Shown here in pieces: positions 9,629 to 29,475 of a DNA stretch of 29,475 nucleotides (its first letter is position 1; each line of letters opens with the position of its first letter). The notes beneath the pieces were generated by a model. That model was not told where the DNA came from. It made no database searches and saw only the letters and a list, made by a program, of their open reading frames with translations. Source of the DNA: a virus. The stretch is taken from IMG/VR virus record IMGVR_UViG_3300042312_000144, positions 1-29,475 of that record. The stretch is one strand, 5' to 3'. Both the position numbers and the translations under genes were made by a program.

Positions 9629-11191
9629 ATGGCAATTCAAACAATCCCAGGGTTAACAGGTTTTACTTATGCTCGTGTAGCGTCTATGGACAAACGTGCT
9701 GTTGGAAAACTTACAGACTCAAATCACTTAGAGAGTTTTCACTCTACTGAGCCTGCAGATTATGATAAAAAAATCATTTCTTTATATACGCAGAGCTCTT
9801 TGTACAGCAACGACTTTTTGGACATGATTAACAAAAGCACACCTTATTACATTGATAATAATAGTGATGCTTGGAAATGGCAAATAGCTGTTCCCTACAA
9901 ATTTCCAAAAATTATTGACATTCCTGCTAGCACGCAAGATTTAATTGCTTCTGGTAAAACAGGCATTGATGGTCAAGAATTTCAATTAGTATTAGATACT
10001 AATGAGTTTTCTAAAAATGCTATCGTTTCTGTAGGCACTCGTCAATATGGTCCTAGATTTTATGTAATAAAAGATCCACAACCTTGGAACATGGGCTTTT
10101 TGTATTCATTTACATTAGTAACTGATAATCCAATTGTTGATTTTGTAAATCCTACATTCTTACAATATGGTGTTGAACTAGAATTAGTTGATGCTGCTAT
10201 TGGTGAGTTTGATCAAGATTTGTTAGGCTTACCAAGATTAGGTGAACAAATCACTATGTTTGAATCTTTAGGATCAGCATATGGATATGAGCACAAAATT
10301 ACAGAATGGGCTGATGACAAAATGATGAGAGATGCCTCTGGTAAACCTCTTGATATTTTAGTGTATGCTCCACAAAGACGTAATCAACTACCTTTAACTC
10401 GTAATGATGTTAAATGGGAACCATTTATTGAATTCTGGATGCGTAAGTCTATGATTGAGCTGAAAGTTAAACGTATGATTTGGGCTAAGCCTGGTACAGT
10501 TAAAACTAATGGTTCTAAACAAGAATTGAAACGTACATCTGCTGGTGTTTACCACAGAATGAGAAACAATGGTAACTTAGTACAATACAACAGAGGTGAG
10601 TTTTCTGCTAATTTAATTCGTTCAGTATTTGGAGACTTGTTCTACAGAAGAGTGGATGTAAAAGACAGAAGTGTTAAAATGTACACTAATGAAGCTGGTT
10701 TTGATGTATTCCAACAAGCTCTTAAAAATGATGCATTAAACTCTGGTCTTACTTTCATGGCAGATTCTGGAAACAGATATATGCAAGGTGAAGGACAACA
10801 TATCACTTACAACTTTGCATTTGATGCAATGGTTACACGTGAAACAGGTAGAGTGGAATTGATTCACTTAAAAGAATTAGATTTACCACAAACTAACTTA
10901 GAATTTGGACAAAACAAAAAAAGTACACCAGTATTTATGGTGTTTGATGTTTCTCCAATGTCTGATGGTTCAATGGTAAACAACATCCGTGAAGTACGTA
11001 TGAAGGGTGCACCTTCTATGACTTGGGGTTATATTGATGGTACTCGTCACCACTTAGGTTTTGCTAAATCTCAAGGTATGAGTTCTGCTAATAAATTCCC
11101 AGGATACGAAATCTGGATGAAAGATAGATGCGATGTATTTATTGAAGATCTTTCTAGAACTGTGTTGATCGAGGAAATCCCACAATTCTAA
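9629..11191 (+). CDS. Major capsid protein, HK97-fold type expected (520 aa)
   Basis: The size (crAss-like capsid proteins are about 490-520 aa), the place after portal and scaffold, and the higher frequency of common codons fit the major capsid protein. The start MAIQTIPGLTGFTYARVASMDKRAVGKL and a mixed alpha/beta pattern follow, with a long region DKMMRDASGKPLDILVYAPQRRNQLPLTRND and EFWMRKSMIELKVKRMIWAK in the middle (about 230-290). The end reads YEIWMKDRCDVFIEDLSRTVLIEEIPQF. No separate cleavage motif is obvious. The gene is transcribed from the promoter at 8327-8357 and followed by structured RNA and a tRNA (11204-11443) before the next gene. An A-rich leader (ACAAATAACA) precedes the ATG, with no Shine-Dalgarno. 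Confidence 0.87.
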   Translation: MAIQTIPGLTGFTYARVASMDKRAVGKLTDSNHLESFHSTEPADYDKKIISLYTQSSLYSNDFLDMINKSTPYYIDNNSDAWKWQIAVPYKFPKIIDIPASTQDLIASGKTGIDGQEFQLVLDTNEFSKNAIVSVGTRQYGPRFYVIKDPQPWNMGFLYSFTLVTDNPIVDFVNPTFLQYGVELELVDAAIGEFDQDLLGLPRLGEQITMFESLGSAYGYEHKITEWADDKMMRDASGKPLDILVYAPQRRNQLPLTRNDVKWEPFIEFWMRKSMIELKVKRMIWAKPGTVKTNGSKQELKRTSAGVYHRMRNNGNLVQYNRGEFSANLIRSVFGDLFYRRVDVKDRSVKMYTNEAGFDVFQQALKNDALNSGLTFMADSGNRYMQGEGQHITYNFAFDAMVTRETGRVELIHLKELDLPQTNLEFGQNKKSTPVFMVFDVSPMSDGSMVNNIREVRMKGAPSMTWGYIDGTRHHLGFAKSQGMSSANKFPGYEIWMKDRCDVFIEDLSRTVLIEEIPQF

Positions 11192-11203: not shown

Positions 11204-11251
11204 GAGAAGAATCCCCTCAACTCCTCTCCCTCCTACGAGGGGATGATTCTC
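11204..11251 (+). ncRNA. Long hairpin in the 3' region of the capsid transcript
   Basis: GAGAAGAATCCCCTC (11204-11218) pairs with GAGGGGATGATTCTC (11237-11251): 5 bp, a 2x2 internal loop, then 8 bp, closing an 18-base pyrimidine-rich loop. It starts 12 bases after the capsid stop. There is no T tract after it, so it is more likely an mRNA-stabilising or processing structure than a simple terminator. Confidence 0.55.
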
Positions 11252-11257
11252 AACCCT

Positions 11258-11363
11258 AGTGCCTAACTAAGCATTTGCCTTAGCACCTGCACTTTAAAAT
11301 AGTAAATTAAGAGTGATGGATTGGGGTGTCCCTGGTCGCATATCCTTTCAATAGGAACACTCT
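11258..11363 (+). ncRNA. Structured non-coding segment with alternative pairings upstream of the tRNA
   Basis: GTGC at 11259-11262 can pair with GCAC at 11283-11286 (extended by TAA/TTAG, one bulged C) or with GCAC at 11289-11292 (with A-T closing). Next, AGAGTG (11310-11315) can pair with CACTCT (11358-11363), or GTGTCCCT (11326-11333) with AGGAACAC (11353-11360, one mismatch); the two share bases 11358-11360. The DNA is clearly richer in G and C than its surroundings, and no reading frame is supported. It could be the processing leader of the tRNA, a regulatory RNA, or a decayed tRNA, though no T-arm or anticodon arm is found in it. Confidence 0.4.
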
Positions 11364-11369
11364 GCAAAT

Positions 11370-11443
11370 CGTGTGGTGGAGCAGTTGGTTAGCTTGCTGG
11401 ACTCATAATCCAGAGGTCGAAGGTTCGAGTCCTTCCCACGCAA
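11370..11443 (+). tRNA. tRNA-Met(CAT), initiator (fMet)-like
   Basis: The cloverleaf is complete. Acceptor 11370-11376 with 11436-11442; D stem GAGC/GCTT; anticodon stem CTGGA/TCCAG with loop CTCATAA (anticodon CAT at 11404-11406); variable loop AGGTC; T stem GAAGG/CCTTC with loop TTCGAGT; discriminator A at 11443. Position 1 is C and position 72 is A, an unpaired C1-A72 end, and positions 11-24 are A-U. Both are identity marks of bacterial initiator tRNA. The third mark, three G-C pairs at 29-31/39-41, is only two-thirds present (GGA/TCC). CCA is not encoded (ACT follows base 72). It may be an initiator tRNA carried by the phage; the alternatives are elongator Met or, with a modified C34, Ile. 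Confidence 0.93.
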
Positions 11444-11476
11444 CTAAAATAAACCAAATTATTAAATAACTACATT

Positions 11477-12445
11477 ATGGGTAAAACAGGCAAAATTTCT
11501 ACTATTAAGAGAGAATATAATAGCTCTCAATTACAAACAATGGATAGTGGGTTAGCACAGAAAGGAATGACTAGAATCCCTGGAACAGGTGTATTCAAAT
11601 ATCCTTATAAAGAATTAGATGGTAAGTACAGAACAGGACTTGATCCAGAAGCTGCTTACATCAAACGTATCAAAGATGATACTGAAAGAGAACTTGAGAT
11701 TCAAAGAGTAACCAATCTTCGAAAAAAACTTGAAGATCAGATAGGTGATATTGATCTTGGACCACGTTCTAAGTTTTGGAATTATGGACTATCATTATCT
11801 CCAGATGATCAAACTCATGTACAAGCAGTTAAACTGATGGATGGTGATAACTATTTTGATTTATCAAATGCTTTCCAAGAAATAGCCTTTTCATGGTTAA
11901 GAGTACACCCAACCATTGCATCTTCTTACCAAGCATGGGAAAGAGGAGAATATCCAGCAGACACACAATTTTATGTAGTAGATGATGAGATAGAGAATGC
12001 AGTGATCTTCAAGAAAAAACAATTAATTAATAAAGCAATTGTTAAGTTTGATTCAATGACTCCTGAAAAGAAACGTAAAGTTGCAAGACTTTTAGGTTTA
12101 CCAGTATCAGAAGATTCAAAAGAAGAAGTAGTGTACAATTTAGTAGACAACACATTAAAACAAACTGAGTTTAAGAATGGTAAATATTCAGGATTAAATC
12201 CAGTGGAAGTGTTTAATAGGTTTGCTGACATGAAAGAAAGTTTACTCCATATTAAAGATTTAGTAAAACAAGCTGTTGCACACTCTATTTATAGAATAAA
12301 ACCTAATGGTAAAGTTTATGAAGGAGAATTTGAAATAGCTAAAGATGAGGAAGATTTAATTAAATTCCTTGCAGATGATGATAATCAAGATGAGCTATTA
12401 ACATTAGAAGGTAAATTAAAAACTAAAAAACTAGCTTCTACATAA
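11477..12445 (+). CDS. Phage protein of unknown function between capsid and connector genes (322 aa)
   Basis: The family is not recognised with certainty, but the position directly after the capsid gene and tRNA suggests a virion or assembly role. The N-terminus is polar with a KYPYKELDGKYRTGLDPEAAYIKRIKDDTERELEIQRVTNLRKKLEDQIG segment that looks like a long helix (residues about 35-95). The middle holds aromatic residues (PRSKFWNYGLSLSPDD; FQEIAFSWLRVHPTIASSYQAWERGEYPADTQFYVVDDE). The C-terminal half is helical and ends acidic then basic (LADDDNQDELLTLEGKLKTKK). The leader ATAACTACATT before the ATG repeats the motif seen at 2923 and 8386. The last codons and the stop are inside the hairpin at 12426-12458. 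Confidence 0.65.
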   Translation: MGKTGKISTIKREYNSSQLQTMDSGLAQKGMTRIPGTGVFKYPYKELDGKYRTGLDPEAAYIKRIKDDTERELEIQRVTNLRKKLEDQIGDIDLGPRSKFWNYGLSLSPDDQTHVQAVKLMDGDNYFDLSNAFQEIAFSWLRVHPTIASSYQAWERGEYPADTQFYVVDDEIENAVIFKKKQLINKAIVKFDSMTPEKKRKVARLLGLPVSEDSKEEVVYNLVDNTLKQTEFKNGKYSGLNPVEVFNRFADMKESLLHIKDLVKQAVAHSIYRIKPNGKVYEGEFEIAKDEEDLIKFLADDDNQDELLTLEGKLKTKKLAST

Positions 12446-13234: not shown

Positions 13235-14404
13235 ATGGCTGATTTTTCTTTAACCACGTTATTCGTGGTTCCAGTAGGGCAAACTGCACTCCCTAGCTCT
13301 GGTTCAACACAAAACTTGACTGCAGGACAAGTAGGTATTTTTAGAAGTGATTATTCAGTAGCTACTGCTGCTAATATTGCTGCATCTCCTTATTTCTACA
13401 TTGCACAAGGTAGAACAAACACTTATTTGCAAGGATCTAAAAGATCTGATAAAATTAAAGGTTGTCCATCAGGATCTGGTTGTAACTCAAATGTAACAGA
13501 ATGGTACAAAGTATCAGGATGTCCTACAGCTGCAAACCAAATTACTGATGTAACTAATTTCACTGTACAATGTGGAGAAACTATAACACTCACTTTGCGT
13601 GCTCACTCTTCTTATATTGATACTTTGTATTTCAATGGTTTTACTCGCTCAGTAACTGTACAAGCACCTTGTTGTGGTTGTGAGGATAATCCTTGCGATA
13701 ATGTAAGTGCTAATACAATAATTAACTTATTGATAGGAAAATTAAATCAAAAAGCTCCTGGTAACAACCCTGATAACATTTCTTTTTCTACATTTTATAC
13801 ATTTGAAAATGTAGGTGGAACAATTTTACGTATTACAGGAAAACCATTAACTAAATATGGTCAGCCTTGTGATGTAGCTGCATTCCCTTATGAATATGAT
13901 AGAATGTGGTTCCGTACATTTGTGTATTCAGGTCCTGCTACTACAGCTGATTTTATTGTAGATGATAATTGTAATCTTGTAGCTAATGCTGTTGTAACTC
14001 AACGTGCTTCTTATGCTTCAGGACAATCTGATGAAATTGCTCAATTAGAGAAAAACTTCTATAGCTATCAAGCAGGTTACTTGAAACATTTACATAGAAT
14101 GGTTGGATACAATGAGAACTTTGAGTCTTGGGTATCTAGTGGTGTTACTTATGACACATACTACATTAAATTTAATGAATATAATAAATCTGCATATGTG
14201 TGGGGTGATTATATCATGGAAGATTCTACAGTAATTATTGCTGCTCCAAATGCTACAACAAGTGGTATAGCTGCTGCTATAGAGACTGTATTAGAAGCTG
14301 GTTTAGGTACTGTGGTTGATAACAATGTTTGTATCACTACTACCACTACTACTTCAAGTGCTCCTGTTTCAACAACAACAACTACTTCTACCCTTATTCC
14401 TTAA
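13235..14404 (+). CDS. Virion surface protein with C-terminal Thr tract (389 aa)
   Basis: The start MADFSLTTLFVVPVGQTALPSSGSTQNLTAGQVGIF is beta-rich and lacks a signal peptide. A cysteine cluster follows (CPSGSGC, then CCGCEDNPC at about 147-155), and a large mixed domain with many Tyr/Phe (EKNFYSYQAGYLKHLHRMVGYNENFESWVSSG). The last 22 residues are Thr/Ser with Ala, Pro and Val (tract 14336-14401), ending TLIP. Similar proteins are common in phages of aquatic Bacteroidota, from memory, as abundant virion components. A capsid auxiliary or head-fibre protein is likely, given its place after the capsid block. The Thr tract forms the extreme C-terminus with no domain after it, unlike the tail genes further on. 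Confidence 0.6.
   Translation: MADFSLTTLFVVPVGQTALPSSGSTQNLTAGQVGIFRSDYSVATAANIAASPYFYIAQGRTNTYLQGSKRSDKIKGCPSGSGCNSNVTEWYKVSGCPTAANQITDVTNFTVQCGETITLTLRAHSSYIDTLYFNGFTRSVTVQAPCCGCEDNPCDNVSANTIINLLIGKLNQKAPGNNPDNISFSTFYTFENVGGTILRITGKPLTKYGQPCDVAAFPYEYDRMWFRTFVYSGPATTADFIVDDNCNLVANAVVTQRASYASGQSDEIAQLEKNFYSYQAGYLKHLHRMVGYNENFESWVSSGVTYDTYYIKFNEYNKSAYVWGDYIMEDSTVIIAAPNATTSGIAAAIETVLEAGLGTVVDNNVCITTTTTTSSAPVSTTTTTSTLIP
14336..14401 (+). repeat. Thr/Ser tract at the C-terminus of the 389-aa virion protein
   Basis: 22 codons, mainly ACT, ACC and ACA with AGT/TCA/TCT, ending one codon set before the TAA. First of nine such tracts in the window. Confidence 0.8.
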
Positions 14405-18257: not shown

Positions 18258-18893
18258 ATGTCATATTTACCTGTTAATCCTTGTTGTACAGATGTAATTA
18301 TACCCACTCCTTGTGGATGTTCTTCTACACCTTCTAATAATTGTGGACAAAATATGTGTGGAACTAATACATTACTATCTAGCAATGTTGTTTACAATGG
18401 ACCAGCATTATCTTGTATAGTGGCTGAACCATGTAATACATTAAATGTAGTTTTACAAAAAATAGATGAGATTATATGTAATTTAGTATCACAGATAAAT
18501 TATTTAAATATTCAAATAACTAACATCACTAATCAAGTAATTAATATAAATGGTGATATAATTAATATTTACAACACATTAGAACAATGTTGTGGCGCAA
18601 CCACTACCACTACATCTACTAGTAGTTCAACCACAACAACAACCACTACTCCCTCTTCAGAAACGTGTTCAATATATAAACTAATAGCTTCAGGACCTAG
18701 TGTTTTACCTGGAGACACCGATTGGTCAGGTGTAGATTGTTATACAAGTCTTCCAGTTGGAGGAACAGTTACAGATCTTGTTAGTATTAATACAGAATGT
18801 ATAGTTGATGGTTCATTAACATATGGTGATAAAGTAATCTTACTTGAAAGCTTATCTTGTAATACAACAACCACCACAACTACATTAATATGA
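18258..18893 (+). CDS. Tail-tip/fibre protein with Thr tracts, paralogue of the next gene (211 aa)
   Basis: The start at 18258 (MSYLPVNPCCTDVIIPTPCG) is preferred over an in-frame ATG at 18177, because that one lies deep inside the previous gene and adds a stretch unlike anything else. The order is a Cys-rich head (CGCSSTPSNNCGQNMCG), a helix with IDEIICNLVSQINYLNIQITNITNQVININGDIINIYNTLEQCC (about 68-113), a Thr/Ser tract (115-131), a small beta module (CSIYKLIASGPSVLPGDTDWSGVDCYTSL...), and a second Thr tract at the C-terminus followed only by Leu-Ile. The helix has Ile/Asn at heptad-like positions, suggesting a trimeric stem. The stop overlaps the next ATG (ATGA). Receptor binding is likely but unproven. 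Confidence 0.65.
   Translation: MSYLPVNPCCTDVIIPTPCGCSSTPSNNCGQNMCGTNTLLSSNVVYNGPALSCIVAEPCNTLNVVLQKIDEIICNLVSQINYLNIQITNITNQVININGDIINIYNTLEQCCGATTTTTSTSSSTTTTTTTPSSETCSIYKLIASGPSVLPGDTDWSGVDCYTSLPVGGTVTDLVSINTECIVDGSLTYGDKVILLESLSCNTTTTTTTLI
18600..18650 (+). repeat. Thr/Ser tract in the 211-aa fibre protein
   Basis: 17 codons of Thr (ACC/ACT/ACA) with four Ser, linking the stem helix to the C-terminal beta module. Confidence 0.8.
18864..18884 (+). repeat. Thr tract ending the 211-aa fibre protein
   Basis: Seven Thr codons followed by Leu-Ile and TGA. No module follows, and the next gene begins in the overlapping ATGA. Confidence 0.75.
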
Positions 18894-19546
18894 TTTGTCC
18901 TAGTATAAACAACACAACAATAATAGGAACAAGTGGCATTTCATATGATGCCCCACCACTTCCTTGTACAGATGTAAACACTTGTGATGGTTTAAATTTA
19001 ATATTTTCTAAATTTGACACTATTATATGTTCTGTAATAGATGATGTTGATGAAATAACAAAAAACATAACAAATCTTAATGAGCAGTTAGTAACTATAA
19101 CTGATGATATAGTTAATATTAATGAACAATTAAATATATGTTGTCCAACCACTACCACTACCACCACAGTTCCTCCCACTACTACTACCACTACTAGTAG
19201 TAGTACTACTACCACTAGTACAACATTACCACCAACTACCACTACCACTAGTAGCTCTAGCACATCTACTACTTCTACAAGCACATCTACAACATCTACA
19301 ACATCTACAAGTAGCACTACCACAACCACTACTACATCTATACCATTACTTTGTTTTCAATTAGAAATATATCCTCCATTATTTAATCCAGGAACATTTC
19401 ACGTGGTACAATATTTAGATTGTGAGGGTAAAATTCAAGTTGAAAGTGTGCCATCTGATGCAGAAATGGTAACTGTATGTTACACAGCAGTTGTATCTGA
19501 TAATCTTAATGGGGTGACAACACCTTTGTACATCTATTGTCTTTAA
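18890..19546 (+). CDS. Tail-tip/fibre protein with long Thr/Ser-rich mucin-like linker (218 aa)
   Basis: The N-terminal part mirrors the preceding gene. The two share the pattern Tyr-Xaa-Xaa-Pro-Xaa-Leu-Xaa-Cys, then LNxxxxKxDxIIC, a Thr-Asn-Ile/Leu coiled helix (TKNITNLNEQLVTITDDIVNINEQL), and Cys-Cys before the tract. Residues 87-150 are a 64-residue tract of Thr and Ser with two Pro-Pro breaks (VPP, LPP), the longest in the window. It should be extended and stiff, and is a candidate for glycosylation. The C-terminal 68 residues are a compact beta module with four Cys (LLCFQLEIYPPLFNPGTFHVVQYLDCEGK; CYTAV; YIYCL end). Presumably a tandem duplicate of 18258-18893 whose C-terminal module has been exchanged. 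Confidence 0.65.
   Translation: MICPSINNTTIIGTSGISYDAPPLPCTDVNTCDGLNLIFSKFDTIICSVIDDVDEITKNITNLNEQLVTITDDIVNINEQLNICCPTTTTTTTVPPTTTTTTSSSTTTTSTTLPPTTTTTSSSSTSTTSTSTSTTSTTSTSSTTTTTTTSIPLLCFQLEIYPPLFNPGTFHVVQYLDCEGKIQVESVPSDAEMVTVCYTAVVSDNLNGVTTPLYIYCL
19148..19339 (+). repeat. 64-codon Thr/Ser tract, longest low-complexity tract of the window
   Basis: 192 bases of mixed ACT/ACC/ACA and AGT/TCT/AGC codons. The middle contains (TCT-ACA/ACT)-like short repeats around 19263-19310. The mixture of synonymous codons shows selection on the protein, or an old expansion, rather than fresh slippage. Confidence 0.85.
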
Positions 19547-19561
19547 ACTAAAACCAATAAT

Positions 19562-20092
19562 ATGACAGTCTTAATAACACTAACAGTAGCAGGTCTAGAT
19601 TCTGGACCATTCAATCTTTATTCAAATCTTGATGGGTACACCTCAGCATTTGAAACAGGAGTTTCTAGAGTAGCATTACTTGCAGGATATTCTTCTTCTT
19701 TAGTTCCTGATTTTACAACAACTATTAGAGTGATTTCTACAGGTAATTGTACTAATTATATTGATATACCATTATATATCACTACAACAACTACTACCAC
19801 TGCAACACCTACAACAACAACTACCACTACAACAGGATTAGTTGAAGGTATTATGTCTACAACTTCTCATCCAACAGATGCATGTCCATTGTCTTTATCA
19901 CCTTCTTGGTGGTTAGGAGGTACAGGTACAATTGGTGTAGGAGGAATTGTATATACAGATTCATTAGGAACTACACCTTTTGTAGGAGATGGGAATTTTT
20001 ATAAATTAAAACTATTAAGTAGTCCAACTGTTTATAGTGCACCAGTAGATAGTTTTGGAGCAATAGGTATTCCTGTTAGTATATGTCCATAA
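19562..20092 (+). CDS. Modular small tail protein with Thr linker (176 aa)
   Basis: Residues 1-73 form a small beta domain (MTVLITLTVAGLDSGPFNLYSNLDGY, VSRVALLAGYSSSLVPD, STGNCTNYIDIPL). I have seen this pattern, ending before a Thr tract, in many phages of Bacteroidota, so it is probably a movable module. A Thr tract (residues 74-91, with Ala-Thr-Pro inside) joins it to a second beta domain (HPTDACPLSLSPSWWLGGTGTIGVGG... FYKLKLLSSPTVYSAPVDSFGAIGIPVSICP). The latter has Trp-Trp and two cysteines near its ends. It is the last gene before the terminator at 20127-20153. A tip or receptor-contact role is inferred from neighbours. Confidence 0.6.
   Translation: MTVLITLTVAGLDSGPFNLYSNLDGYTSAFETGVSRVALLAGYSSSLVPDFTTTIRVISTGNCTNYIDIPLYITTTTTTTATPTTTTTTTTGLVEGIMSTTSHPTDACPLSLSPSWWLGGTGTIGVGGIVYTDSLGTTPFVGDGNFYKLKLLSSPTVYSAPVDSFGAIGIPVSICP
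19781..19834 (+). repeat. Thr tract joining two beta modules
   Basis: 18 codons, sixteen Thr with Ala and Pro; it ends before Gly-Leu-Val. Confidence 0.8.
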
Positions 20093-24233: not shown

Positions 24234-27200
24234 ATGGCTGAAGAAAAACAACAAGGAAACATAAGACAAGAGTATAACAATGCTACTGTAGGACTGAATA
24301 TGGATCAATCTGTTAATCAGATTAAACCAGGTACTCTTACATATGCATTGAATGCTGCTTTGGAAAACTTTGATGCTAATTCTGTTAATTATCAGAATGA
24401 ACCAGGAAATGAGTTTTGTTTAAAATTTCCACAAGGATTTGTATTAATAGGAGATTATTTTATTGGAGAACTAAACAAACATATGTTTTTTATAACTAAT
24501 CCTATTACAGGAGACAGTCAAATAGGATATATGGATAATAATGATTGCATCTATCACAAATTAGCAGAAGGAAAATGTCTTAATTTTAATGTAAACCATC
24601 CAATACATAAAGTGGTACATAAAATTACAAACTGCACAACAGAAATATATTGGACAGATGGGTTAAACCCAAGAAGATATTTAGACATTAATAATGTTCC
24701 TTATTTACTAGCTTCTCAATCAGAATTGTGTGATCCTGTATATACAGATAGATTAGATTGTAATCAATTAAAAATACAACCTAATTTTAGTATTCCTTTT
24801 TTAAATGTTGTAGATGTAATTAGTGGAGGAGAGTTAAAAGCTGGAACTGTTCAATTTGCTATACAATATTGTGATGCTGCTGGAAATCCCTTTACATCCT
24901 ATTATTCTGTCACCAATCCCACCCCAATAGTTGATCCTGCCATCACTACAGTTAATTATGATTATAATGTAGGTAAATCAGTTGTGTTAGATATAACAGA
25001 TCTTGATACTACAGGACAATACCAATATTATAACTTAGCAGTGATTACCACTGTAAATGCTATCACTTCTGTACAATTAGTAGGTGTATATTTTATTGAA
25101 AACTCATACAACCAGGTTATTTATACAGGACAAAATGTAGAAAATATTCGTTTAGTTATTGCAGACATATTTGAAAAATATCCTTATTATGATGTTGCAC
25201 AAGATTTAACAGCTGTACAAGACATTCTTGTATGGGACAACCTTACTTCTATAGATAGAATAAATTATCAATCTATTGCTAGTCAGATAAAACTTTATTG
25301 GCAAACATATAGAATACCTAACACAGAAAATTATGCTGATGAATTAAATGCTACAAATTTACGTGGATATTTGCGTGATGAGGTGTATGCATTTGAAATT
25401 GTATTCCTTCTTAAAAATGGAAAACAAACAGATGGTTTTCATATACCTGGGAGAGAATTAGGATTTAATGATTTACAATATCCAAATGTACTAGATACAG
25501 ATCCAGATTTTATTGGAGAACCAGATCAAGGTACAAACTATAGTCCTTATTGGAAGATATATAATACAGCAACTGTAATTGGGCCTGCAACAGGAGATAA
25601 TATAGGTAATGCAACACCACATGAATATGGTGAGTTTGCTTATTGGGAATCTACAGAAGAATATCCTTGTAATGAGCTTTTGTGGGGAGATCTTGCTGGT
25701 AAACCTATTAGACACCATAAATTTCCTGATGTTTTAGTAAGTCCTATATTTGAAAATCCTATGTACACTTATACAGGAACTGAAATAACTCCTGTAATGC
25801 AAAATGATGCTGTATTTCCAATTGGTGTAAGAATAGACCCTGCACAAATTAATGCATTAATTACATCATCATCTCTTACTACAGAACAGAAAGATGATAT
25901 TGTTGCCTATAAAATAGTTAGAGGAGATAGAGGAACAAACAAATCTATTGTAGCTAAAGGAATTCTTCGTAACATTGGTTCTTATGAAAGAGAAAATCAA
26001 ACCTTTTACTACCCAAATTATCCTTATAATGATGTTAATACAGATCCTTTTTTAAATGCAAACAACAATGCATTTAATCAAATATCTAATCCTTGGTTAG
26101 TAATAAATGATGGTGTCACCCCAGTTAAAGTTAGCTATAAAGATCCCAACACAAATCAAGATGTAACAAGAGATGTGCCTCCGCTAACCACAGTTGAATT
26201 TTGCTCAACAAGTAAACCTATAGCACTAAATGGTTTACCATTAATTGGTCCTGGAAATTTTGATTCATATTTTTTAAGTGGTTGTAATAGTACAACAGGT
26301 TATCGTGCACTTTGGTCCACTCCTTTTACTAGAGATAACTCTGCTTTAGAACAAAAACAACAATGGATAAATTCTAATGGTATTTTAGGATTTGATCAAT
26401 GCAGCACTACTCATGCAATAGTTAATGTAGGAGGTAATGTTGGTAATGATTGTGTGAACACTTGGTATAATCCAGCTAAGTGTTATCCTATTGCTGATCT
26501 AGAAGATATAGAATTTCAAGATGAAGGTGTTGTACTTTTTAATAAAAGTAGAAGATCTAAACTTAGTTGTAAAATTGAAACACCTCTTTCACCATTTACT
26601 AATACATCTTTACATTATAGACAAATATTTAATTCTCCTGAAACCTCTTTTGGGCAACCTTTTTTAGGTAATGTATTAAAACTTGAAAATGTAATATTTG
26701 GTGGGGGAAAAGCACACTTTGTTGAAGTAAAAAGTAATGCTAAATATAAATTACTTACAGAAGAAGCTCAAAGAGATGCATTATTATCATCAGAAAATTT
26801 AGCTGCTATTACCACTCCATTTAATGCAGCAGCAATGTTTGCAGCTTATCAATCTTATTTAACTATTTATGTAAATGGTATCACTAGAAAAAATTATGCA
26901 TATTCATTTAATTCTATAGCTAGTTATGATTATTTTGGAAACATAAATAATGGTGTAGGTATTAAACAAAGAACAATTGATTTTACTCGTTATTTAATAC
27001 CAGGGGTTCAATCTGTGGGAGAACCAGGGGGTATAAATATAAATAACTTTGAAAGAGAAAGTTCAGTGTATATTAAAACTATAGAAGATAGAAATAATAT
27101 TCCTGTTACATCTTTTGATATTCCTAGCAATACACCAAGTCTTGTTGTGGCAGGTAATTCTATAATTACAGATTATTCTAGATTTACTATAGGAAATAGT

Positions 27201-29475
27201 AATGTATGTAACACTCCTTCTAAAGAACAAAATATAAAAGTTGTTGCTTATTATGCATCAATGAAAAATATATTTATAAACCAATGGGGGCAAATATATT
27301 CATATAACACTATTGATACAGGTTTTCAAAGAAAAGTTAATGCCACAAATACAAATATTGCTACTGTGTTTGGTGGGGATACATTTATTTCTAGATTTAC
27401 ATTTAAAACAAAACTTCCTTATTTTATTGATAATAGAGTTAATGCTCCTGATGATTCAGATATTTTTTATGATGAGATTGGTAATGTAGCTTATCCAAAA
27501 TTTTGGCATTCTGCTAGATCTATATTAAAAGATTATACAGCAAGAGGAGTAGTTATGTCAAATATTATTTCATATAAAGCACATAGTTTTGACTGTCCTA
27601 ATTATAACCCTATAACAGGTGCTATTAGTGCATCTTCTGGATCTAATAGAACATTTTATGATGGGTATTTTTATTTATTTGCATATGGTGTTCCTAATTT
27701 TTATTGTGAAACTTCTTATAATTTAGATTTAAGACAAGCATTTAATAATAGAGAAGGAGATTTTTGGCCACACGTATCTACAGGTATTCCTGATAATTGG
27801 GTTCAAGAAGACTATGTATCTATACAAAATGATAATACATATACATATAATGTAACCTTTTCTAAACAAAATAAAGAGAATACATTTACACATTTGCCTC
27901 CAGATTGGAATGATAGTTTTTGTTATACAAACTATCCATTTAGAGCCATCTATTCTGATTCTCAAAATATGGACTCTGATAACAGGGTTAATAGTTGGTT
28001 AACTTATAGATCACTATCATATTTTGATTTTCCACAAAATTATGGAAAACTTACATCATTAGATGGTATACAAAATAGAGCTATATTAGCTAGATTTGAA
28101 AATAAAACTTTATTATATGGTAATTTATTAACAATTGATACAAGTAATCCTCAAGCTGCATATGTAGGTAATCCAACATTATTTAAAGGAGCTCCTCCTG
28201 TTGATTTTGCTGAAACAGATCTTGGTTATGTAGGAAGTCAAAATAAATTTTTATTAAAAATTCCACAAGGACAAATAACAATAGATGCAAAAAGAGGACA
28301 AATATTTTTAATATCTGGTACACAAGCTGTAGATCTTTCTGCATTTGGTAGTGGTATGAATAGATTTTTTGTAGATCATTTAGCTTTTGAAATACTTAGA
28401 TATTTTCCTAAAGTTAATATAGACAATCATTATACAGGAGTTGGTTTACATGGTGTGTATGATAGTAAATTTGACAGAATTATTTTTACTAAATTAGATT
28501 ATATTCCTATTGATGTAGATGTTAAATATGATGATGTTTTACAACAATTTTATATAGAAAATGAAATAGAAGGAATTAATTTAAGAACACAAGTGTATTT
28601 AACAGACCCTGATTTCTTTTGTAATAAATCCTGGACTATCTCATTTAACATGAACACTAGGTCTTGGGTGAGTTTTCATACATATCTTCCCAATTTCTAT
28701 ATAGCAGAAAATAATTTCTTCTATTCAGGAATAAATGGATGTTGTGATGATGTTAACTTTTCTGCTTTAGTAGGTAATTTAGTTCCTCCTACAAGTACCA
28801 CCACTACAACAAGAATTATTCCTATCACCACTACAACAACAACAACAGGATTAGATTGTCAAATAGTAGGAACAGCAAATATACTATATTGTGGATTGGT
28901 AGGAAATGCTATAGTTACTACACCTCCTGCAAGTACCACTACAACAACCACATTGTGTACAAGACCAGAAGGGCTAGAATTATATGGGTTTTATACAGGT
29001 TATCAAGTAGGAGTAGATCCACCAGTTGTGTCTACAGGAAGTCTTGAAGATGCTTGTGCTGCAATTGCATACACAATTACTAATCCTTTAATTTTAACTG
29101 GATTTATAGTTATGGCTGAAAATCTTTTAATAAACACTCAGGTTTATTATGGGTATGGTACAGATTGTACACTAGTTCCTGATGGATGGTATTTCACAAA
29201 TGAAGGTCAATCTGAAGGATTTGCTTATCAAGTTTCTGGGGGAAGCATTGCACAAATTTCATATTGTAATAATAACAACACCACCACCTCTACCACTACA
29301 TTAGTTCCAGGTATTCCAGAGTGTTGTGGTGTACTACTCAGTGATAGAGATAATGTATATCTTCTTAATAATGATGGGACATTAAGTGCTTTGTCTATAC
29401 CAGGATATGTGACACCTTTAGCATCAATAGTAATAGAATTATCCACTAATAAACTATGGTCTTTAGAAAGTCAAA
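24234..29475 (+). CDS. Giant tail (muzzle-like) structural protein, 3' end beyond the window (over 1,747 aa)
   Basis: ATG at 24234 (MAEEKQQGNIRQEYNNATVGLNMDQS) opens a frame that stays open for 1,747 codons to the edge. The first ~1,500 residues are beta-rich with many Asn, Tyr, Pro and Gly and few Lys-rich helices (NFYCETSYNLDLRQ, EDYVSIQNDNTYTYN, RSLSYFDFPQNYGKL, FGSGMNRFFVDHLAFEILRYFPKVN), as in the tail-muzzle proteins of crAss-like phages. From about residue 1520 the character changes. Three Thr tracts (residues 1520-1538, 1567-1573, 1683-1689) separate small cysteine-bearing modules (DCQIVGTANILYCGLVGN; CTRPEGLELYGFYTG; PECCGVLLSDRDNVYLLNNDG). This extension looks added to a core muzzle. 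The C-terminus is outside the window, so total length is unknown. Confidence 0.75.
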   Translation, partial: MAEEKQQGNIRQEYNNATVGLNMDQSVNQIKPGTLTYALNAALENFDANSVNYQNEPGNEFCLKFPQGFVLIGDYFIGELNKHMFFITNPITGDSQIGYMDNNDCIYHKLAEGKCLNFNVNHPIHKVVHKITNCTTEIYWTDGLNPRRYLDINNVPYLLASQSELCDPVYTDRLDCNQLKIQPNFSIPFLNVVDVISGGELKAGTVQFAIQYCDAAGNPFTSYYSVTNPTPIVDPAITTVNYDYNVGKSVVLDITDLDTTGQYQYYNLAVITTVNAITSVQLVGVYFIENSYNQVIYTGQNVENIRLVIADIFEKYPYYDVAQDLTAVQDILVWDNLTSIDRINYQSIASQIKLYWQTYRIPNTENYADELNATNLRGYLRDEVYAFEIVFLLKNGKQTDGFHIPGRELGFNDLQYPNVLDTDPDFIGEPDQGTNYSPYWKIYNTATVIGPATGDNIGNATPHEYGEFAYWESTEEYPCNELLWGDLAGKPIRHHKFPDVLVSPIFENPMYTYTGTEITPVMQNDAVFPIGVRIDPAQINALITSSSLTTEQKDDIVAYKIVRGDRGTNKSIVAKGILRNIGSYERENQTFYYPNYPYNDVNTDPFLNANNNAFNQISNPWLVINDGVTPVKVSYKDPNTNQDVTRDVPPLTTVEFCSTSKPIALNGLPLIGPGNFDSYFLSGCNSTTGYRALWSTPFTRDNSALEQKQQWINSNGILGFDQCSTTHAIVNVGGNVGNDCVNTWYNPAKCYPIADLEDIEFQDEGVVLFNKSRRSKLSCKIETPLSPFTNTSLHYRQIFNSPETSFGQPFLGNVLKLENVIFGGGKAHFVEVKSNAKYKLLTEEAQRDALLSSENLAAITTPFNAAAMFAAYQSYLTIYVNGITRKNYAYSFNSIASYDYFGNINNGVGIKQRTIDFTRYLIPGVQSVGEPGGININNFERESSVYIKTIEDRNNIPVTSFDIPSNTPSLVVAGNSIITDYSRFTIGNSNVCNTPSKEQNIKVVAYYASMKNIFINQWGQIYSYNTIDTGFQRKVNATNTNIATVFGGDTFISRFTFKTKLPYFIDNRVNAPDDSDIFYDEIGNVAYPKFWHSARSILKDYTARGVVMSNIISYKAHSFDCPNYNPITGAISASSGSNRTFYDGYFYLFAYGVPNFYCETSYNLDLRQAFNNREGDFWPHVSTGIPDNWVQEDYVSIQNDNTYTYNVTFSKQNKENTFTHLPPDWNDSFCYTNYPFRAIYSDSQNMDSDNRVNSWLTYRSLSYFDFPQNYGKLTSLDGIQNRAILARFENKTLLYGNLLTIDTSNPQAAYVGNPTLFKGAPPVDFAETDLGYVGSQNKFLLKIPQGQITIDAKRGQIFLISGTQAVDLSAFGSGMNRFFVDHLAFEILRYFPKVNIDNHYTGVGLHGVYDSKFDRIIFTKLDYIPIDVDVKYDDVLQQFYIENEIEGINLRTQVYLTDPDFFCNKSWTISFNMNTRSWVSFHTYLPNFYIAENNFFYSGINGCCDDVNFSALVGNLVPPTSTTTTTRIIPITTTTTTTGLDCQIVGTANILYCGLVGNAIVTTPPASTTTTTTLCTRPEGLELYGFYTGYQVGVDPPVVSTGSLEDACAAIAYTITNPLILTGFIVMAENLLINTQVYYGYGTDCTLVPDGWYFTNEGQSEGFAYQVSGGSIAQISYCNNNNTTTSTTTLVPGIPECCGVLLSDRDNVYLLNNDGTLSALSIPGYVTPLASIVIELSTNKLWSLESQ
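28791..28847 (+). repeat. Thr tract in the muzzle-like protein, first of three
   Basis: 19 codons in two Thr blocks split by Arg-Ile-Ile-Pro-Ile, ending in Gly-Leu. Confidence 0.8.
28932..28952 (+). repeat. Thr tract in the muzzle-like protein, second of three
   Basis: One Ser and six Thr codons, followed by Leu-Cys. Confidence 0.75.
29280..29300 (+). repeat. Thr tract in the muzzle-like protein, third of three
   Basis: Six Thr codons and one Ser, followed by Leu-Val-Pro; preceded by Asn-Asn-Asn. Confidence 0.75.

Follow-up and report, generated by a model that had tools for sequence, protein, structure and literature searches.

Results

The tRNA gene and its surroundings

The window, that is, the whole stretch of 29,475 bases analysed here, is a virus record whose terminase, portal and capsid genes are crAss-like; it represents part of the genome of a crAss-like phage, of a lineage described as aquatic or environmental. 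Between its capsid gene and the following gene lies a tRNA gene (Table 1). ARAGORN, run on the whole window, calls a single tRNA, tRNA-Met(cat), at 11370-11444, and 11370-11443 scores 61.9 bits against the Rfam tRNA model (gathering score 29, E 2.5e-11). The gene begins 178 bases after the capsid stop codon, and about 33 bases separate its end from the next gene. A search of this strand revealed no terminator-like site with a T run, so that read-through transcription from the capsid gene into the tRNA is likely.

Table 1. Coordinates of the features discussed, in window positions
Feature	Position	Strand	Basis or remark
Major capsid protein gene (crAss-like)	9629..11191	+	Crass_capsid PF23898, E 1.9e-28; phrog_11589
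Long G+C-rich hairpin 3' of the capsid gene	11205..11250	+	z -2.45; without a U tract on the same strand
Three-way-junction RNA element directly 5' of the tRNA	11310..11363	+	z -2.40; also in relatives lacking the tRNA
Initiator-type tRNA(CAU)	11370..11443	+	ARAGORN, Rfam; conserved and covarying in relatives
Pair 31:39 of the tRNA (A at 11401, U at 11409)	11401..11409	+	departs from cellular initiators (PMC5143459, table 4)
Anticodon CAU	11404..11406	+	ARAGORN; kept in 21/22 distinct family sequences
Gene 3' of the tRNA (phrog_16383)	11477..12445	+	

All the marks listed in the first-pass annotation can be read in the sequence: a C1 (11370)/A72 (11442) mismatch, A11:U24 (11380/11394) in the D stem, the anticodon CAT, discriminator A73 (11443), and G-C at two of the three pairs 29-31/39-41. 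The anticodon stem consists of C27:G43, U28:A42, G29:C41, G30:C40 and A31:U39, the last being the third pair of that triplet; the anticodon loop is CUCAUAA, as in bacterial initiator tRNA, and C74 (11444) alone of the CCA end is encoded.

The three-way-junction element is strongly covarying, with two-sided changes in 12 of its 17 pairs, and has no match to any Rfam family. It has the form AGAGTG...CACTCT, carries a T-loop-like TTCRAT loop on its third arm, and is found in about 97 of 111 distinct intergenic regions between the capsid gene and the next gene, with or without a tRNA. On its 5' side (11251-11305 in the window), these regions contain optional stem-loop modules, AGTGCC...GCACT, ACTTAGT...ACTAAGT and GTAGTTACTACGC...GAGTAACTC, which are shuffled among relatives. 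Nine relatives (L006, L007, L027, L032, L050, L101, L102, L112 and L123) have some 300-500 additional bases in the interval, 5' or 3' of the tRNA, possibly ORFs such as homing endonucleases. Elsewhere in the structural region, several genes contain ACN-rich (Thr/Ser) repeats (14336-14388, 18600-18652, 19148-19335, 19781-19833 and 28794-28853). An ORF of more than 1,747 amino acids occupies 24234-29474 and continues past the record end; an alternative genetic code for 24.2-29.5 kb was rejected, as this single ORF is open in the standard code.

Presence and variation among relatives

IMG/VR contains hundreds of relatives, and related capsid proteins are encoded on at least 598 stretches there. 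A tRNA occupies the slot that separates capsid gene and next gene in 51 of the 154 loci having both flanking genes, or, counted by distinct capsid sequences, in 36 of 118. The distance from its end to the next gene is 28-35 nt in 46 of the 51 loci and about 500 nt in the other five. On the capsid tree, presence is clustered yet patchy (13 parsimony changes, against a shuffled mean of about 31). Since most relatives are without it, the tRNA gene is dispensable. The first-pass annotation had called its location inside the structural block unusual; within the family this position is a conserved one, but a location in the structural block is not unique to it, as other phages (cr60_1, Bradleyvirinae) have initiator-type tRNAs adjoining terminase genes.

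In near-complete relatives (about 110-119 kb), the slot tRNA is the only canonical tRNA, or there is none, besides degenerate Leu-like elements. These tRNA-like elements (L284 241-310, minus strand; L286 225-319, minus; L292 228-302, plus; L293 226-322, minus) have good acceptor and T arms, a Leu-like D arm and odd anticodon arms, and are mostly called as tRNAs without a standard anticodon or with conflicting ones. No phage-encoded peptide deformylase, a possible partner of the tRNA, was found in 18 relatives.

Within the family, the tRNA exists in 22 distinct sequences, which fall into several body types, and all 22 have a 1-72 mismatch (C.A, A.A, U.U or G.A); relatives that restore this pair, which the first-pass annotation would have taken as refuting its proposal, were therefore not encountered among them. 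Among the 17 distinct sequences that could be aligned, the covariation score is 0.470, against 0.185 in shuffles (0/500 shuffles reach 0.470), and two-sided changes number 57 cells against 18.6. In these 17, the 1-72 columns are always unpaired although both letters vary, and G30:C40 is invariant, while 29:41 and 31:39 vary, always as pairs, in a compensatory manner. Pairing in the family anticodon stems is kept at 96%. Because 22 distinct versions are present at the same site and their cloverleaf covaries, the window tRNA gene is real, far beyond chance, and selection acts on its fold, its anticodon and its 1-72 mismatch.

Stem triplet and D arm, on the other hand, vary much across the family. 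A11:U24 is found in the window tRNA and in relatives that share its body type; in the L022-type, L038 and L291 tRNAs it was read by eye, one inserted base shifting the automatic alignment. Three relatives with the window's body (L246, L038, L022) have the stem triplet AGG/CCU. Exceptions occupy the same slot: the L033 and L045 types have U11:A24 with stem mismatches, and in the L006 type the D arm is abnormal. The tRNAs of L033 (4732-4804) and L045 (4729-4800) have other bodies, with a TTTAGTGTAA D arm, a GGG/CCC stem, and mismatches in the acceptor and T stems. They nonetheless keep CAU and the 1-72 mismatch, an apparent case of gene replacement converging on initiator marks. The single family sequence without CAU has the anticodon CGT (L055/L056/L144; L055 5161-5235, L144 18176-18250), which would read ACG, and keeps a mismatch, A1-A72. 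We found no ACG starts in this lineage: those L144 starts that can be read in alignment with window starts are all ATG, the others being unaligned there.

Initiator or elongator

In the published counts for tRNAs with anticodon CAU (PMC5143459; 4,438 bacterial initiators, 5,479 elongators), C.A at 1:72 occurs in 3392 initiators and 3 elongators, and A11:U24 in 4430 of the 4,438 initiators and none of the 5,479 elongators, 99.5% of which have a paired 1:72. Our own collection, a tally that left out a few tRNAs whose start ARAGORN had placed one base early, agrees: the 31 cellular initiators are all of mismatch type or U:A at 1:72, with GGG/CCC or AGG/CCU stems, and the 33 elongators have C11:G24 and a nearly always paired 1:72. 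Of the features of a bacterial initiator, the window tRNA has the 1-72 mismatch, A11:U24, CAU within CUCAUAA, and A73; where an elongator Met or Ile2 tRNA has a paired 1:72 and C11:G24, it has C.A and A:U. The initiator identity proposed at first pass is thus upheld by positions 1-72 and 11:24.

The stem mark fared less well. Two G-C pairs are indeed present, but the triplet is GGA/UCC, which is neither the three G-C pairs of initiators nor one of their three minor cellular variants; it is a triplet of elongator Met and Ile2, found in 918 published elongators (335 Met, 583 Ile2), in none of the 4,438 initiators (PMC5143459), and in none of our 31. By its ends and D arm, the window tRNA is therefore initiator-type, with an elongator-like stem triplet, and since the defining three G-C pairs are lacking, we file it as a variant rather than a standard member. 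The AGG/CCU of the same-body relatives, which is the second cellular initiator triplet (PMC5143459) and which we also observed in the initiator-type tRNAs of Prevotella and cr60_1, links it to ordinary initiators. Bacteroidota initiators (Prevotella, Parabacteroides) are likewise without a templated CCA, in agreement with PMC5143459.

Stems of other viral initiator-type tRNAs

The first-pass annotation placed initiator-type tRNAs in a few large phages. They seem commoner: 286 phage records contain something resembling the tRNA region, a number that includes matches not individually confirmed as initiator-type. Two patterns, with the D arm fixed and the stem free, were run on viral contigs, and the counts below refer to the non-family matches listed for the first. 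These are at least 106 distinct viral tRNAs, and 37 of the 106 have a triplet outside the four cellular ones. All five pairs are kept in 99-100% of these stems, and G30:C40 in 102 of 106. The same pattern in Bacillota gives 71 matches in 51 of 199 genomes, 69 with GGG/CCC and two with AGG/UCU. A base other than G stands at position 31 in 20 of the 106 viral matches listed and in 0 of the 71 cellular ones (Fisher p 1.7e-5), a comparison that is not host-matched.

On the cellular side, Bacillota and Planctomycetota were covered directly; Bacteroidota, Pseudomonadota and candidate phyla are represented through the table of PMC5143459. The pattern search found no position 31 other than G in the 199 Bacillota genomes, nor did a looser pattern in 119 Planctomycetota genomes. 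A general initiator pattern matched cellular genomes in Chlamydiota, Planctomycetota and Bacillota alone, and a cellular pattern built on the long D loop and the TGGA/TCCA stem of the window tRNA had no match in the GTDB contig collection. On these counts, rebuilt anticodon stems are common among the initiator tRNAs of viruses and almost never seen in those of cells.

Discussion

Proposed role

We consider that the gene probably encodes a functional phage initiator-type tRNA (tRNA-fMet-like) that adds to or replaces fMet-tRNA late in infection, with nuclease evasion as the likeliest reason for its odd stem. The mechanism, for which we infer expression, charging, formylation, initiation and evasion, would run as follows. 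The tRNA would be transcribed together with the region from capsid gene to next gene, excised by the host's RNase P and 3' nucleases, and completed with CCA by the host. Host MetRS would charge it, given CAU and A73; because its 1-72 end is open, it would be formylated, and it would be kept off EF-Tu. IF2 would then place it in the ribosomal P site, where 16S rRNA would grip G30:C40 and G29:C41, and the phage tRNA would thereby supplement or supplant fMet-tRNA in late infection.

The altered stem bears on the last steps. The pairs 30:40 and 29:41 are contacted by 16S rRNA, and a swap of G30:C40 lowers initiation 20-fold in E. coli (PMC11497404); a tRNA with G29:C41, G30:C40 and A31:U39 should therefore still be accepted by the P site, if perhaps with lower efficiency. 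The bond between A38 and C39 of tRNA-fMet is where VapC toxins cleave (PMC4105405), and this cleavage is sequence- and stem-loop-specific (PMC8522696). A changed 31:39 pair (29:41 in relatives) would thus leave the 16S grip largely intact and alter the stem beside the A38/39 bond, and may make the tRNA resistant to initiator-cutting nucleases; relaxed selection could also account for the change. The suggestion made at first pass, that the phage tRNA stands in for a host initiator lost to nucleases, is plausible, and the altered stem gives it a more specific form.

It has long been asked why phages carry tRNAs. The near-complete relatives, with a lone initiator tRNA or none, speak against codon compensation: as codon usage cannot explain a lone initiator, such genes isolate two other hypotheses, supply at initiation and escape from host tRNases. 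Of most interest, in our view, is the general stem pattern, which predicts that viral initiator tRNAs initiate and resist VapC-type 38/39 cutting, and which is open to a simple cleavage and initiation test. That bacterial viruses widely carry initiators rebuilt at 29:41 and 31:39 through compensatory change, with G30:C40 kept, the window tRNA included, and that these still initiate yet escape VapC and other initiator-specific tRNases, is a generalization that we put forward tentatively, as possible and still doubtful. These natural variants, which keep G30:C40 and relax the two other pairs, also bear on which of the 'universal' G-C pairs are needed.

Alternative explanations

Three other scenarios are considered: drift, a processing signal and an elongator. 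In the first, an ordinary initiator is a spare copy next to a sufficient supply from the host, gained and lost by recombination and drifting under relaxed selection, and the odd stem brings no advantage. The patchy presence on the capsid tree, the high variability of stem triplet and D arm, and the occurrence of similar tRNAs in many phages would fit. However, pairing is retained at 96% in family anticodon stems and at 99% in the other viral ones among the matches listed, G30:C40 is nearly invariant, and the family never loses the 1-72 mismatch, which together indicate that selection on function is present. Moreover, variation is confined to two pairs, one of which adjoins a known nuclease site. 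We therefore regard drift as rather unlikely, though the best placed of the three.

The gene might also be a tRNA-like processing signal, at which RNase P and RNase Z cut the capsid mRNA from that of the next gene, decoding being irrelevant. Such a role would account for the fixed distance to the next gene, for the location 3' of other structured RNA, for the use of one slot by several unrelated tRNA bodies, and for the change of anticodon to CGT in one lineage. A cut site alone, however, needs neither CAU nor the 1-72 mismatch, a mismatch that in fact lowers 5' processing (PMC5143459), and two thirds of distinct relatives do without the tRNA. This scenario appears improbable to us.

An elongator tRNA-Met or lysidine-type tRNA-Ile2 that lost its first acceptor pair by chance would explain the GGA/UCC triplet, and Rhizobium phage RHph_Y65 has an elongator-type Met tRNA with a matching anticodon arm, but this reading is already strongly contradicted, and very improbable, given the complete absence of A11:U24 from published elongators and the rarity of an unpaired 1:72 among them, a mismatch conserved in the family through changes on both sides, and the initiator triplet of the same-body relatives.

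Comparison with known systems

With bacterial tRNA-fMet of metY/metZ type, the initiator-type tRNA of the window shares CAU, C.A at 1-72, A11:U24, A73, G29:C41 and G30:C40; it differs in having A31:U39 where the cellular tRNA has G31:C39. The crAss-like phage cr60_1, Stenotrophomonas phage QDWS359 and Janthinobacterium phage Donnerlittchen share A11:U24 and CAU with it. They have a single tRNA or a few near their terminase genes, with GGG/CCC or AGG/CCU stems, in slots 5' or 3' of the large terminase gene, whereas the window tRNA lies 3' of the capsid gene.

Phage tRNAs changed near tRNase sites have been proposed to escape cutting, and tRNA-fMet was reported there to be generally avoided (van den Berg et al. 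2023, PMC10264068). Relative to cellular initiators, the window tRNA too is changed near a known VapC-type cut site. It differs from these phage tRNAs in that it is initiator-type, its anticodon loop is intact, and the change affects the 31:39 stem pair next to the 38/39 cut. In the stems of its family relatives, 29:41 is changed as well as 31:39, as opposed to the loop changes of the tRNAs in PMC10264068. With the loop intact, a change at 31:39 would offer a second route of escape while the same codon is read.

Finally, A31:U39 is also part of the E. coli 3GC mutant (U29:A41/C30:G40/A31:U39, PMC10486304), and C30:G40 is the change in the M1 mutant (PMC11497404). The window tRNA keeps G30:C40, unlike M1, and, unlike 3GC, it retains both G29:C41 and G30:C40, the pairs contacted by G1338 and A1339.
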